Of a stretch of DNA of 64,000 bases, positions 22,066 to 60,364 are shown one piece after another; positions within the stretch are counted from its first letter, which is position 1; the number at the start of each line of letters is the position of its first letter. Under the pieces are notes generated by a model. It worked only from the letters and a program-made list of their open reading frames with translations, ran no database searches and was not told the origin of the DNA. The position numbers were made by a program, and so were the translations under genes. Origin of the DNA: Pseudomonas fluorescens (GTDB taxonomy: Bacteria; Pseudomonadota; Gammaproteobacteria; Pseudomonadales; Pseudomonadaceae). Location: positions 2,875,826 through 2,939,825 of the forward strand of contig NZ_OZ024668.1 of NCBI RefSeq assembly GCF_902497775.2, given 5' to 3'.

Positions 22066-22868
22066 TCGCGCAGGCTGCGTGGTGTCTGCCCCAGGGTCCG
22101 GCGGAACATGCTGGAAAACGCCGCCGGGCTGTCGTAGCCCAGGTCCAGGGCAATACGGGTGATCGCCTCGCCCTGGGCCAGCCTGGCCAGGGCCAGCACC
22201 ACGCAGGTACGCTGGCGCCACTGACTGAAGCTCATCCCGGTTTCGGCGCGAAACCAGCGCCCGAAGGTGCGAAGGCTGACGTGCAGCTCGGCGGCCCAGT
22301 GCGCAGGCGACTGGTGCACGTCAGGCCTGAGCAGGAAGGCCTGGCAGCGCTGGAGCAGCGCCTGATCCTGCGGCAGCGGAATGTGAAACGGCAAGCTTGC
22401 CGCGGCACGCAGCTCATGCAGCAGCAGATTGACCAAGGCTGCGTCCCTGCCGTGCAGGTCGTACTCCAGGTCCATCTCCACCGCCGCCAGCAGCAACTGG
22501 CGCATCAGTGCTGAAACCTCCAGCACCTGGCACTCGCCCGTCAGCAGCAGCGCATCGGCTTCGATGTAGAGGCTGCGCGTGCTGACGCCAAGCATCAGCA
22601 CCTCATGCTCCACCCCCGGGGCAATCCATACCGCCCGCTGCGGCGGCACGACCCAGTCGCCGGCAGGTGTACGCACCTGCATCACCCCGGTAGCGCCGTA
22701 GAGCAATTGCGCGCGGCGATGGCTGTGGCGCGCCAGCAGGTAACCGTCGGGATAGTCAGTGCCAATGGCGACCACGGCGCGAGGCGTGGCATCGAGCAGG
22801 TTGATCGAGACGTTGTACATGGGCAGGTCCGTGGCCGATTCACGATCATTATTGACCGATTTGCTCAT
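22059..22868 (-). CDS. AraC-family transcriptional regulator with cupin sensor domain
   Basis: About 269 residues. The N-terminal cupin-like sensor (LLARHSHRRAQLLYGATGVM, then WIAPGVEHEV) is followed by a C-terminal double helix-turn-helix ending in ITRIALDLGYDSPAAFSSMFRRTLGQTPRSLR. It is divergent from the TauE-type exporter, so it probably controls that gene and itself. The start is uncertain: ATG at 22868 is used, while ATG 22883 and GTG 22910 are in frame and would shorten the intergenic space. Confidence 0.88.
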   Translation of the reverse strand: MSKSVNNDRESATDLPMYNVSINLLDATPRAVVAIGTDYPDGYLLARHSHRRAQLLYGATGVMQVRTPAGDWVVPPQRAVWIAPGVEHEVLMLGVSTRSLYIEADALLLTGECQVLEVSALMRQLLLAAVEMDLEYDLHGRDAALVNLLLHELRAAASLPFHIPLPQDQALLQRCQAFLLRPDVHQSPAHWAAELHVSLRTFGRWFRAETGMSFSQWRQRTCVVLALARLAQGEAITRIALDLGYDSPAAFSSMFRRTLGQTPRSLRDQ

Positions 22869-22927
22869 GCAGGCCAAAAGCATGCTGGATAACCTGTCGC
22901 CCCTGATCACCCAACGGACGACTTTCC

Positions 22928-23722
22928 ATGCTCTTTGTGCTCCTGACCCTGTTCGGTTGCCTGAGCGGCATCACCAGCGTGCTGTTCGGCTTCGGCGGTG
23001 GCTTCGTCGTCGTGCCGTTGCTGTATCACCTGCTGCGCCTGCAACCGGCCACCGCCGATTCGGCCATGCAGATCGCCGTGGCCACCTCCACCTGCGTGAT
23101 GATCGTCAGCGCAGCACTGGCCACCTTCAAGCACCAAAGCGCCGGCAACCTCAAGCGCGAATACCTGTGGCCGCTGGCAGCGTACATCGCTGTAGGCGCG
23201 GTGATCGGTGCCAGCCTGGTGGGCGCCCTGGCCAGTGACTGGCTGCGCTGGGCCTTTATCCTCTACCTGGGGTTTACCCTGCTCGACTGCCTGTTGCGCG
23301 AAGGCTTTCTGCAGCACGGCGGCCAAGCCTCAGCTCGCCCGCTCGGGCACTTGAAGAGTGCGGGGTCCGGCGTGCTGATCGGCACCGTCGCCAGTGTCCT
23401 GGGTGTGGGTGGTAGCGTCATGAGTGTGCCGCTACTGCGCCGCAGCGGCCTGGGCATGACCCAGGCCACGGCGATGGCCAGCCCATTGAGCTTGCCGGTG
23501 GCACTGGCGGCGACGGCGACCTATGTAATCAGCGCCGGTAGCGATTTCGGTGCGGGGTTTGTCGGTTATGTCGACCTGTCGGCGTTTGCCCTGCTAGCCC
23601 TGGGGGCCTGGTTCGGTACCCGGCTGGCGGCGCGCTGGATCGGCAGGATCGATGACCGCAAGCACGCGCAGGTCTATCTCGGGCTACTCGCCCTGGTCCT
23701 GCTGAGCATGCTCTGGAGTTAG
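22928..23722 (+). CDS. TauE/SafE-family sulfite/anion exporter
   Basis: Inner-membrane protein of 264 residues with about eight hydrophobic segments and the two-fold repeat of the family. The first half begins LFGCLSGITSVLFGFGGGFVVVPLL; the second has GVLIGTVASVLGVGGSVMSVPLL, each with the glycine-rich GxGGG/GVGGS loop. Members export sulfite, sulfoacetate or related organosulfur anions. The divergent AraC regulator suggests substrate-dependent induction. Confidence 0.88.
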   Translation: MLFVLLTLFGCLSGITSVLFGFGGGFVVVPLLYHLLRLQPATADSAMQIAVATSTCVMIVSAALATFKHQSAGNLKREYLWPLAAYIAVGAVIGASLVGALASDWLRWAFILYLGFTLLDCLLREGFLQHGGQASARPLGHLKSAGSGVLIGTVASVLGVGGSVMSVPLLRRSGLGMTQATAMASPLSLPVALAATATYVISAGSDFGAGFVGYVDLSAFALLALGAWFGTRLAARWIGRIDDRKHAQVYLGLLALVLLSMLWS

Positions 23723-58752: not shown

Positions 58753-58985
58753 GAACGTCAATGTTCCACAAGGGGGGAAGAGACGGGAGCCTTCGCAATG
58801 GTTGTGCCATTTATGTAACTAGTTATTTTTTATATGTTTTTTCAATTAACGATTGATGTGGTGCTGCCTGATGAACAGCTGGCCAGCACAGTTTGCGTGA
58901 GCATCAGCAAGAGCCGGGGCTGCAACTACGAGCGCATTCCAATCTTCCCTTGAATCCCCTCTGCAACCTCGCTCCCCTCCCCCAG

Positions 58986-59020
58986 TCGCTGTAAATCCAG
59001 CGACCGGGTTTGGTAGCCCG
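58986..59020 (+). promoter_or_regulatory. Two tandem leader hairpins, the second with loop TTTGGTAG (copy A)
   Basis: First hairpin TCGCTG/CAGCGA with loop TAAATC (58986-59003). Second hairpin CGGG/CCCG with loop TTTGGTAG (59005-59020). The loop is complementary to CTACCAA at 59143-59149. Confidence 0.6.
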
Positions 59021-59037
59021 AGTACTCTAAGGCGTGC

Positions 59038-59069
59038 AGACGCCGCTCCCGATCAGCCGGCGTTTTTTT
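59038..59069 (+). terminator. Terminator in competition with an upstream hairpin
   Basis: Eight-bp stem (59038-59045 with 59058-59065, one G-U pair), 12-base loop, followed by T4 (59066-59069). It shares CGCC (59041-59044) with an alternative hairpin GGCG-TGCAGA-CGCC (59031-59044). The two folds exclude each other, as in an attenuator. Confidence 0.6.
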
Positions 59070-59093
59070 GTGCCTGCTGTTTTGTGCTATGGC

Positions 59094-59162
59094 GGCTGTG
59101 CGTGGGGCGCATTCGTGCGCGCTGGGTTCCTAGAGTCCCGGTCTACCAACCTGCGTACAGCC
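59094..59162 (+). ncRNA. Candidate ~69-nt structured RNA exposing CTACCAA (P4 CI-RNA-like)
   Basis: Ends pair as GGCTGTGCG (59094-59102) with CGTACAGCC (59154-59162), 9 bp with one G-U. Inside is a GCGCA-TTCG-TGCGC hairpin (59107-59120) and the unpaired stretch CTACCAA (59143-59149). That stretch complements the loops of the hairpins at 59005 and 59168. The organisation resembles the CI RNA of phage P4, which is flanked by two sequences it pairs with. Inference from folding by eye only. Confidence 0.45.
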
Positions 59163-59167
59163 GTCAC

Positions 59168-59187
59168 CAATCGTTTGGTAGCGATTG
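59168..59187 (+). promoter_or_regulatory. Hairpin with loop TTTGGTAG (copy C)
   Basis: Stem CAATCG/CGATTG, loop TTTGGTAG, identical to the loop at 59009-59016 although the stems differ in sequence. AGGAG follows at 59207-59211 with ATC where a start codon would be expected, then an in-frame 20-codon frame (59227-59289). Confidence 0.6.
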
Positions 59188-59328
59188 TTGCTGGCTCCAC
59201 CACTCTAGGAGCACAACATCGAGCGAATGCTCATCCCCGTGAAAAACACGCTTGAGCAAACACGGCTAGGCGCAGCCACGCGGGTATAGTCGATTCTATG
59301 CCGACCGTACTTCCAAGAGCCTCCAGCC

Positions 59329-60198
59329 GTGCCCGACATCCCGCCCAACACCGCCTACACCCAGCGCTTCAGCGCTGTGCTTGCCTACATCGACGCCAAC
59401 CTCGAAGGTGATCTGTCGGTAAAAGCGCTGAGCCAGGTGGCGAACTTTTCGGTGTTTCACTTTCATCGTCAGTTCACGGCTTTCGTCGGGGTGCCAGTCT
59501 CGCGTTATGTGCAGTTGATGCGCTTGCGCCAGGCGGCGCATCGTTTGGCGGCCAATGCCGATTACGCGGTGCTGGAGGCTGCCCTGGCTGCTGGTTTCGA
59601 AAGCCCGGAGGCATTCAGCCGGGCGTTTCGGCGAGCGCTGGGCATGTCGCCGAGTGCCTTTCGCCGCCAGCCGAACTGGCAGGCCTGGAATACGGTGTTC
59701 GCTATCCCTCACTTTTCCAGGAGCGTCATCATGCAGGTGCGTATTGTGGAGTTTGTTCAAACCCGGGTCGCGGCGCTGGAGCACTGCGGCCCGGCCGCGC
59801 AGGTCAACGAGAGCGTGGGCCAGTTCATTGCCTGGCGCATGGCCAGCGGGCAGTCGCCAGTGGCGTCGAGCCGCAGCTTTGGCATCCCCTACGGCAACCC
59901 CGATACCACGCCAGCGGAGGATTTTCGTTTCGCCCTTTGTGGTGAGATTGATGAGGGGGTGGCGGCGAATGAATTCGGCGTGCACGAACGGGTGATTGCT
60001 GGCGGGCGTTATGCGGTAGTGCGGCATATGGGCTCGCCGGACCATATTGGTGAATCCATCTATCCGCTGTATCGCGACTGGTTGCCGGACAGTGGCGAGG
60101 AGTTACGCGATGAGCCGTTGTTTTTTCATTACCTGAGTGTGTATCCGCAAACGCCGCAGGAGCAGTGGCAGACGGATATTTATGTGCCATTGCGGTAG
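59329..60198 (+). CDS. AraC-family regulator with C-terminal GyrI-like domain
   Basis: 289 residues. N-terminal AraC double HTH (VLAYIDANLEGDLSVKALSQ, ALAAGFESPEAFSRAFRRAL) followed by a GyrI-like small-molecule-binding domain (VRIVEFVQTRVAALEHCGPA to QEQWQTDIYVPLR). The order is that of Rob/TetD-like regulators that bind drugs or amphipathic ligands. GTG start without a strong Shine-Dalgarno. Nothing in the vicinity shows its target. Confidence 0.9.
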   Translation: MPDIPPNTAYTQRFSAVLAYIDANLEGDLSVKALSQVANFSVFHFHRQFTAFVGVPVSRYVQLMRLRQAAHRLAANADYAVLEAALAAGFESPEAFSRAFRRALGMSPSAFRRQPNWQAWNTVFAIPHFSRSVIMQVRIVEFVQTRVAALEHCGPAAQVNESVGQFIAWRMASGQSPVASSRSFGIPYGNPDTTPAEDFRFALCGEIDEGVAANEFGVHERVIAGGRYAVVRHMGSPDHIGESIYPLYRDWLPDSGEELRDEPLFFHYLSVYPQTPQEQWQTDIYVPLR

Positions 60199-60214
60199 CG
60201 AGGCGTAATGGGGC

Positions 60215-60242
60215 CTGTGGGAGCGGGCCTTGCCCCGCGATC
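60215..60242. repeat. REP element
   Basis: REP core in inverse orientation (GTGGGAGCGGGCCTTGCCCC) after the AraC-GyrI stop. Forms a spaced pair with the copy at 60299. Confidence 0.78.
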
Positions 60243-60298
60243 GAGCGCGAAGCGGTCGTAAACCAGGCGCCGCCTAATGTGCTGGCTGGGCTGGCCTG

Positions 60299-60323
60299 AT
60301 CGCGGGGCAAGCCCGCTCCTACA
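60299..60323. repeat. REP element
   Basis: Direct REP core (GCGGGGCAAGCCCGCTCCTA), partner of the inverse copy at 60215 across ~56 bases. Confidence 0.8.
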
Positions 60324-60364
60324 ATGGATTTGCAAACCCCCGGTTTACCAACCGCTGAGGTCGA

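Follow-up and report, generated by a model that had tools for sequence, protein, structure and literature searches.

The window, a 64-kb stretch of Pseudomonas fluorescens DNA, very probably holds an immunity module left by a former temperate element, either a P4-like satellite or a Mu-like prophage, and this module most likely persists as an inactive relic. The module is built around a C4 antisense RNA. As a relic of a known RNA the window copy offers little that is new; the novelty sits in its many relatives, in which both C4 loops co-vary with their own targets across 118 distinct copies. We consider it probable that Pseudomonas genomes carry up to ~42 C4 cassettes each, mainly outside recognisable satellites, that each cassette silences its own DUF3077/DUF6124 or BRO-N gene through a private two-part address with little crosstalk, and that the window copy is a dead outlier among them. 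In this way the window copy yielded a rule, open to testing, on DUF3077 and DUF6124, two families of unknown function whose genes stand behind C4. It makes testable the question of how tens of related antisense RNAs per cell keep to their own targets, and it raises the question of why bacteria keep so many phage-type switches.

Parts and addresses of the window copy

Two Rfam families match the element above their cut-offs in searches of the 64-kb window: the C4 antisense RNA (RF01695; 79.8 bits, cut-off 45, E 5.2e-14) and, upstream of it, c4-a1b1 (RF03163; 56.9 bits, cut-off 46.7, E 1e-11). Both c4 and c4-a1b1 appear among the candidate RNAs of PMC2864571. The upstream part also scores 48.5 bits against isrK (RF01394), just under the cut-off of 50. 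In sequence, fold and order of parts the window copy is the same as the Rfam C4 and c4-a1b1 arrangement, and its C4 fold has a standard pair at each of the 27 paired positions of the model; it differs in having no gene in place and no -10-like box. A 73-aa ORF that runs across the element contains no Pfam domain.

The first-pass annotation, made from the letters alone, had proposed a P4-type antisense element and was right in kind. The two hairpins with different stems and one shared loop (TTTGGTAG) that it described are present, as are the UUCG hairpin and the CTACCAA of the middle segment. Two details needed correction: the closed segment exists but is larger than the 59094-59162 given, the C4 model having a 17-bp stem, and the hairpin taken for a terminator ends in seven T rather than four.

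Table 1 Features of the C4 module in the window
Feature	Position	Strand	Remarks
Degenerate promoter	58950-58978	+	-35-like TTGAAT (58950-58955), 17 nt, TCCCCT (58973-58978)
c4-a1b1 (RF03163) match	58972-59024	+	56.9 bits
Leader hairpin GTCGCTG/CAGCGAC near expected transcript 5′ end	58985-59004	+	transcript start inferred
a1 hairpin, stem CGGG/CCCG	59005-59020	+	loop TTTGGTAG at 59009-59016
b1 (ACTCTAAGG)	59024-59032	+	complement of C4 b′ loop, one bulged A
Terminator-like hairpin with T7	59039-59069	+	isrK-like stretch is 58985-59067
C4 antisense RNA (RF01695)	59085-59171	+	79.8 bits; 17-bp stem
C4 loop b′ (CCTAGAGT)	59129-59136	+	
C4 segment a′ (CTACCAA)	59143-59149	+	
a2 hairpin, stem CAATCG/CGATTG	59168-59187	+	loop TTTGGTAG at 59174-59181
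b2, putative Shine-Dalgarno (ACTCTAGGAG)	59202-59211	+	perfect complement of b′; AGGAG at 59207-59211
Probable deletion junction	59217-59218	.	Shine-Dalgarno leader joined to ATCGAGCG

The C4 RNA carries two addresses. For the first, a′ is an exact match to the loops of both a1 and a2. The second, overlooked in the first-pass annotation, is the loop b′ (CCTAGAGT), which is complementary to b1 and to b2. With b1 (ACTCTAAGG) it forms eight pairs around one bulged A (−7.7 kcal/mol; exact run 6 nt), and with b2 (ACTCTAGG, 59202-59209) a perfect duplex (−12.3 kcal/mol) that overlaps the putative Shine-Dalgarno. A longer, 14-nt b′ segment makes 11 pairs with b2, at −17.0 to −18.4 kcal/mol depending on the stretch given. 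Against 58986-59035 the best duplex of this segment lies not at b1 but starts at 59005 (−10.2 kcal/mol), and b1 is therefore the least certain of the four pairings. The a2/b2 pair is situated downstream of C4, where b2 covers the putative ribosome-binding site (AGGAG).

The likely working of such a module, from transcription and processing to repression and termination, can be outlined by inference from the P1, P4 and Gifsy-1 systems. A functional copy would give one transcript that starts before a1, and the C4 RNA would be cut out of it. The C4 loops a′ and b′ would then pair with a1/b1 and with a2/b2. Pairing with a2/b2 would conceal the Shine-Dalgarno of the following gene; where a terminator is present, pairing would probably favour early termination after b1. 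The window copy, with the gene after the Shine-Dalgarno gone, by deletion on the simplest account, and the -10-like box gone too, would be inactive.

In P1 and P7, c4 (reviewed in PMC12197685) is described as partly hiding a ribosome-binding site through its b′ loop, with a′ giving specificity (PMC5320573). The likeness to the c4-ant arrangement extends to a′ and b′ loops that would pair with their targets, b′ over the ribosome-binding site, and to five BRO-N-type genes behind C4; the difference is that Pseudomonas copies mostly stand ahead of genes of the DUF3077/DUF6124 type or of a 52-aa family. In P4, CI RNA is reported to pair with seqA and seqC to stop transcription (PMC4825925). The likeness to P4, which rests on the published description of CI RNA, lies in the A-B-C order, in sister copies within P4-like satellites and in the hairpin with T7, which is terminator-like and follows the upstream target as in the P4 CI region. 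The same source describes isrK as a structural homologue of P4 SeqA and, for the Gifsy-1 IsrK/STnc1160 pair, a downstream RNA complementary to the short RNA (PMC4825925); the upstream part of the window copy is isrK-like, although its score stays just below the Rfam cut-off.

An orphan copy between two chromosomal genes

The element is flanked by genes for a TonB-dependent receptor and an AraC-type regulator. Between these genes P. wadenswilerensis and P. donghuensis retain a1/b1 (52 bits) but have no C4, and in both the flank resumes at ATCGAGCG, the same letters that follow the Shine-Dalgarno leader in the window. AGGAG followed by ATC (59218-59220), as first annotated, is indeed found after the element. 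We rejected a reading of this ATC as an altered ATG start codon, because ATCGAGCG is ordinary flank DNA in these two C4-less species. In the sister loci (L071, 3828-3887, and L087), ~60 bases that are missing from the window lie between a1/b1 and the flank. Further along, window positions 60211-60332 are repeat-like, several partial copies standing in a row at the same place in the sister species; we take this sequence to resemble a REP-type element.

What stands behind the Shine-Dalgarno is thus flank DNA common to the sister species. It includes the only nearby ATG, which follows GGAG at a distance of 15 nt and starts a frame of 20 codons whose translation is possible in principle. GGAG-to-ATG spacing is 5-10 nt in the other 85 of the 86 copies with both in reach; 15 nt occurs only in the window. 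No antirepressor gene follows b2 in the window copy, as one does in P1/P7. The gene once behind the Shine-Dalgarno was most simply lost by deletion; its loss is read from the other copies, no relative with the gene at the same site having been found. The promoter appears to be degraded as well. A -10-like TAnnnT box is present in the promoter zone of 103 of the 107 copies with an a1 site, against an average of 17.8 of 107 in shuffled zones, whereas the window zone reads TTGAAT-17-TCCCCT and lacks it, as do both sister species.

Searching the 64-kb window for 14 proteins of three satellite elements, among them integrase, AlpA and primase, returned none, so as far as tested the setting is not that of a P4-like satellite and the element has no P4-like genes beside it, as the first-pass annotation had stated. 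A weak match at window positions 22771-22938 to one DUF-type protein (E 0.005) is probably due to chance.

With both the gene after the Shine-Dalgarno and the -10-like box gone, the window copy is most likely an inactive relic, and we expect it to yield no output. For the same two reasons, of the two fates originally proposed, domesticated or leftover, the second is favoured. A point that runs counter to this reading is that the C4 fold is intact and that a′, a1, a2, b′ and b2 still match. Such preservation is unexpected for an old relic, so the copy may be recent or may be transcribed from elsewhere.

The intact fold and addresses would also suit an orphan C4 RNA that continues to be produced and works in trans, giving RNA immunity to incoming phages or satellites with the same two-part address, which is one of the two possibilities named for the C4-like RNAs of Acinetobacter baumannii in PMC5320573. 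We regard this as improbable. The window copy is without the -10-like box, and the joint a2+b2 pattern occurs just once in its own genome, in the element itself. Among the at least 132 a2+b2 matches listed in viral contigs, one has a stem of at least 4 bp and none has the C4 a′ segment within 60 nt upstream. The C4-side pattern has 61 viral matches, four of which show TGGTAG in the next 100 nt; these four are all one sequence and are unlike the module by eye.

Less probable still is that the host adopted the element as a regulator of the AraC-type gene at 59329, acting by read-through transcription. The gene is on the same strand and its ORF start lies ~120 nt downstream of b2, but b2 lies away from that start. 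Both sister species keep this gene (best-segment identity 92 and 95%) without C4. Among 16 Pseudomonas AraC loci searched, out of 24 found, 14 have neither C4 nor c4-a1b1 at the gathering score and the other two have c4-a1b1 only.

Private addresses among C4 cassettes of Pseudomonas

That the element might have no other copies, a possibility entertained at the outset, proved false: its own genome holds 10 C4 copies, along with nine c4-a1b1 matches (six above the cut-off), each beside a C4. A covariance-model search located C4 in 138 of 149 genomes of the genus, the absence in 11 being scored under stricter filters that drop weak matches; of 398 genomes sampled across the phylum, 62 have it. 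Two genomes have 42 matches each: G019, which is complete at 6.7 Mb, with 41 above the cut-off, and G005, with 39.

For comparison of copies we took the best-scoring RF01695 loci, so that weak or decayed copies are under-sampled. A total of 126 were fetched, three were removed because they met a contig end and 123 were parsed, giving 118 distinct C4 sequences. The stems hold together in the fold test: in the 60 of 118 copies with a length of 87 nt, the only length that the test took in, 98.4% of cells at the model pairs are paired, compared with 86.8% when the 3′ sides are re-dealt.

The loops vary, and their targets vary with them. The 7-nt a′ segment has 38 versions among the 118 copies. Of these copies, 107 have an exact complement of a′ in the 40 nt downstream, 107 have one in the 200 nt upstream and 104 have both, which confirms for other copies the complementarity between loops and middle segment that was first noticed in the window. 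When a′ is re-paired among copies (1000 shuffles), the means drop to 8.6 downstream and 9.7 upstream, with maxima of 19 and 22. For b′ the mean longest run against its own downstream region is 7.8 nt, and runs of at least 8 nt occur in 73/118 copies versus a re-paired mean of 2.3. The match to the upstream target, b1, is weaker (at least 7 nt in 54/118, re-paired mean 8.0). The end of the b2 pairing falls 8-10 nt before the start codon in 49 of the 66 copies that have a b2 run of at least 7 nt and an ORF passing the filter.

Within single genomes the addresses largely keep apart. The 30 of 42 G019 copies examined have 17 versions of a′ and 30 different b′ segments; 23 of the 30 match themselves on both addresses, as does one of the 870 other pairings. 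Under this strict cognate test, defined as an exact a match plus a b run of at least 7 nt, only five of the 10 copies in the window's own genome match themselves and none of the 90 non-cognate pairings does.

A comparable abundance has been described in A. baumannii, with 21 C4-like RNAs whose proposed targets are phage and/or bacterial transcripts (PMC5320573). Those of Group 1 resemble the Pseudomonas set in being present in many copies per chromosome (21 versus 41 above the cut-off in G019) and in their variable a′, but in most Pseudomonas copies the match is to their own immediate surroundings, upstream of the gene that follows.

One cassette of the window's own genome is found at the same site and with the same flank in P. 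donghuensis, in blocks 91 and 98% identical. In two more genomes these blocks lie within ~3 kb of each other on one contig.

Genes behind C4 and the probable parent element

As the gene controlled by each copy we took the longest ORF whose ATG is 40-66 nt behind C4, and we clustered gene types by phmmer. Such an ATG is present in 116 of 118 copies, and 101 have an ORF of at least 45 aa; the window copy is among the 17 without one. The 101 ORFs comprise 59 of DUF3077/DUF6124 type, 21 of the 52-aa family, six of a 90-aa family, five BRO-N antirepressor-like genes and ten others. Five members of the DUF-type cluster were scanned with Pfam, three passing the cut-off for DUF3077 or DUF6124 and two missing it; the one BRO-N-type gene scanned matches antirepressor families, and the few 52-aa family members scanned gave no Pfam match. 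The DUF-type protein is predicted to form a helical hairpin (mean pLDDT 77.7), for which no PDB match was found at E 0.001 or better, and the 52-aa protein is predicted to have two helices; neither model was informative about function.

The link between C4 and the DUF genes is close. In G019, a same-strand C4 stands less than 1.5 kb upstream of 43 of the 47 DUF3077/DUF6124 genes, where ~0.2 would be expected by chance, and 38 of the 42 C4 are followed by such a gene over that distance. The same link (<1.5 kb, same strand) joins eight of nine DUF3077/DUF6124 genes and eight of 10 C4 in the window's own genome. Across the 149 genomes of the genus, C4 is present in all 118 with DUF6124, and DUF6124 is absent from all 11 without C4 (Fisher p 6e-9, a value that is too small because the genomes share ancestry). 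A literature search that left subscription papers largely uncovered found no report of C4 control of the DUF3077/DUF6124 families in Pseudomonas.

The DUF-type and 52-aa-type copies differ in two further respects. A run of five T between a1 and C4, scored with no hairpin required, is general in the 52-aa type (21/21) and found in a minority of the DUF type (12/54). Satellite proteins (14 proteins of three elements, including integrase, AlpA, Rha and primase) lie within 1.5 kb of 18/21 copies of the 52-aa type and 0/59 of the DUF type; the counts for the remaining classes are 0/17 for short or no ORF, 0/6 for the 90-aa family, 0/5 for BRO-N and 4/10 for others. DUF-type cassettes may nonetheless sit in prophages of other kinds, since the 1.5-kb test missed the prophage around one module (L011, below), which was recognised only after a wider fetch. 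Around the other eight copies of the window's own genome, 12 of 17 chosen flanking proteins have a Pfam match, mostly to ordinary chromosomal families, and none of the 17 is an integrase or AlpA by Pfam; they include a ParE-like toxin and proteins with ABC-3C and Tox-HDC domains.

There are hints that the DUF cassettes descend from satellite-type elements. Four copies of the window's own genome have their DUF3077 match at a later gene and not at the first. The satellite copy is one of these four, which shows that satellites, too, can hold DUF3077 genes. In G019, the 52-aa-type copy 905577 is similarly followed, after 249 nt, by a DUF3077 match. These later DUF3077 genes, in the own satellite and in the G019 52-aa copy, are the reason for suggesting such a descent. 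The own-genome satellite (~303.5-311.2 kb, within locus L376 at 303.5-312 kb) is P4-like, lies ~2.6 Mb from the window and has its own C4, along with an integrase, AlpA, a 52-aa gene, a DUF3077 gene and a DUF927 protein.

The nearest modules point to a parent element of the 52-aa-gene type. The closest, L011, is 77% identical to the window module, belongs to that type and has genes for a Mu transposase, a DNA-transposition protein and Mor nearby, which places it in a Mu-like prophage. L143, with a short ORF, and L166, of the 52-aa-gene type and in a satellite, come next, and L038 (75%), of DUF type, is fourth. Phage phiAH14b has a C4-like region 69% identical to that of the window; the ORF behind it is of the 52-aa family, and its neighbours include integrase, AlpA and primase genes.

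The window copy could instead have been a stand-alone DUF3077/DUF6124 cassette, outside any satellite or prophage. This kind outnumbers every other in the sample (59/118), and some DUF-type modules, L038 among them, are fairly close. We think this origin unlikely, since the two best-aligned modules with an ORF of at least 45 aa, L011 and L166, are of the 52-aa-gene type, and the T-run that the window copy shares is general in that type and a minority feature of the DUF type. An origin in a satellite or prophage is thus likely, though uncertain in view of the DUF-type L038 and the 12 DUF-type copies with a T-run, and it is the module itself that points to the parent element, no satellite protein being detectable in the window.

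Several observations were made beside other modules. The Mu-like prophage region of genome G008 (L386) shows that C4 also occurs outside P1/P4-type elements, its C4 module being accompanied by a 52-aa-family gene. ParE-type toxin genes lie ~2 kb or less from two C4 modules (L383 3398-3685; L386 8712-9107), and a Tox-HDC-domain protein (L384 4693-5322) adjoins the C4 cassette at G000:C1:3542589. A possible further case is PP_5401/PP_5402 of P. putida KT2440, described as a ~300-nt sRNA region with a fitness cost on overexpression (PMC7324555).
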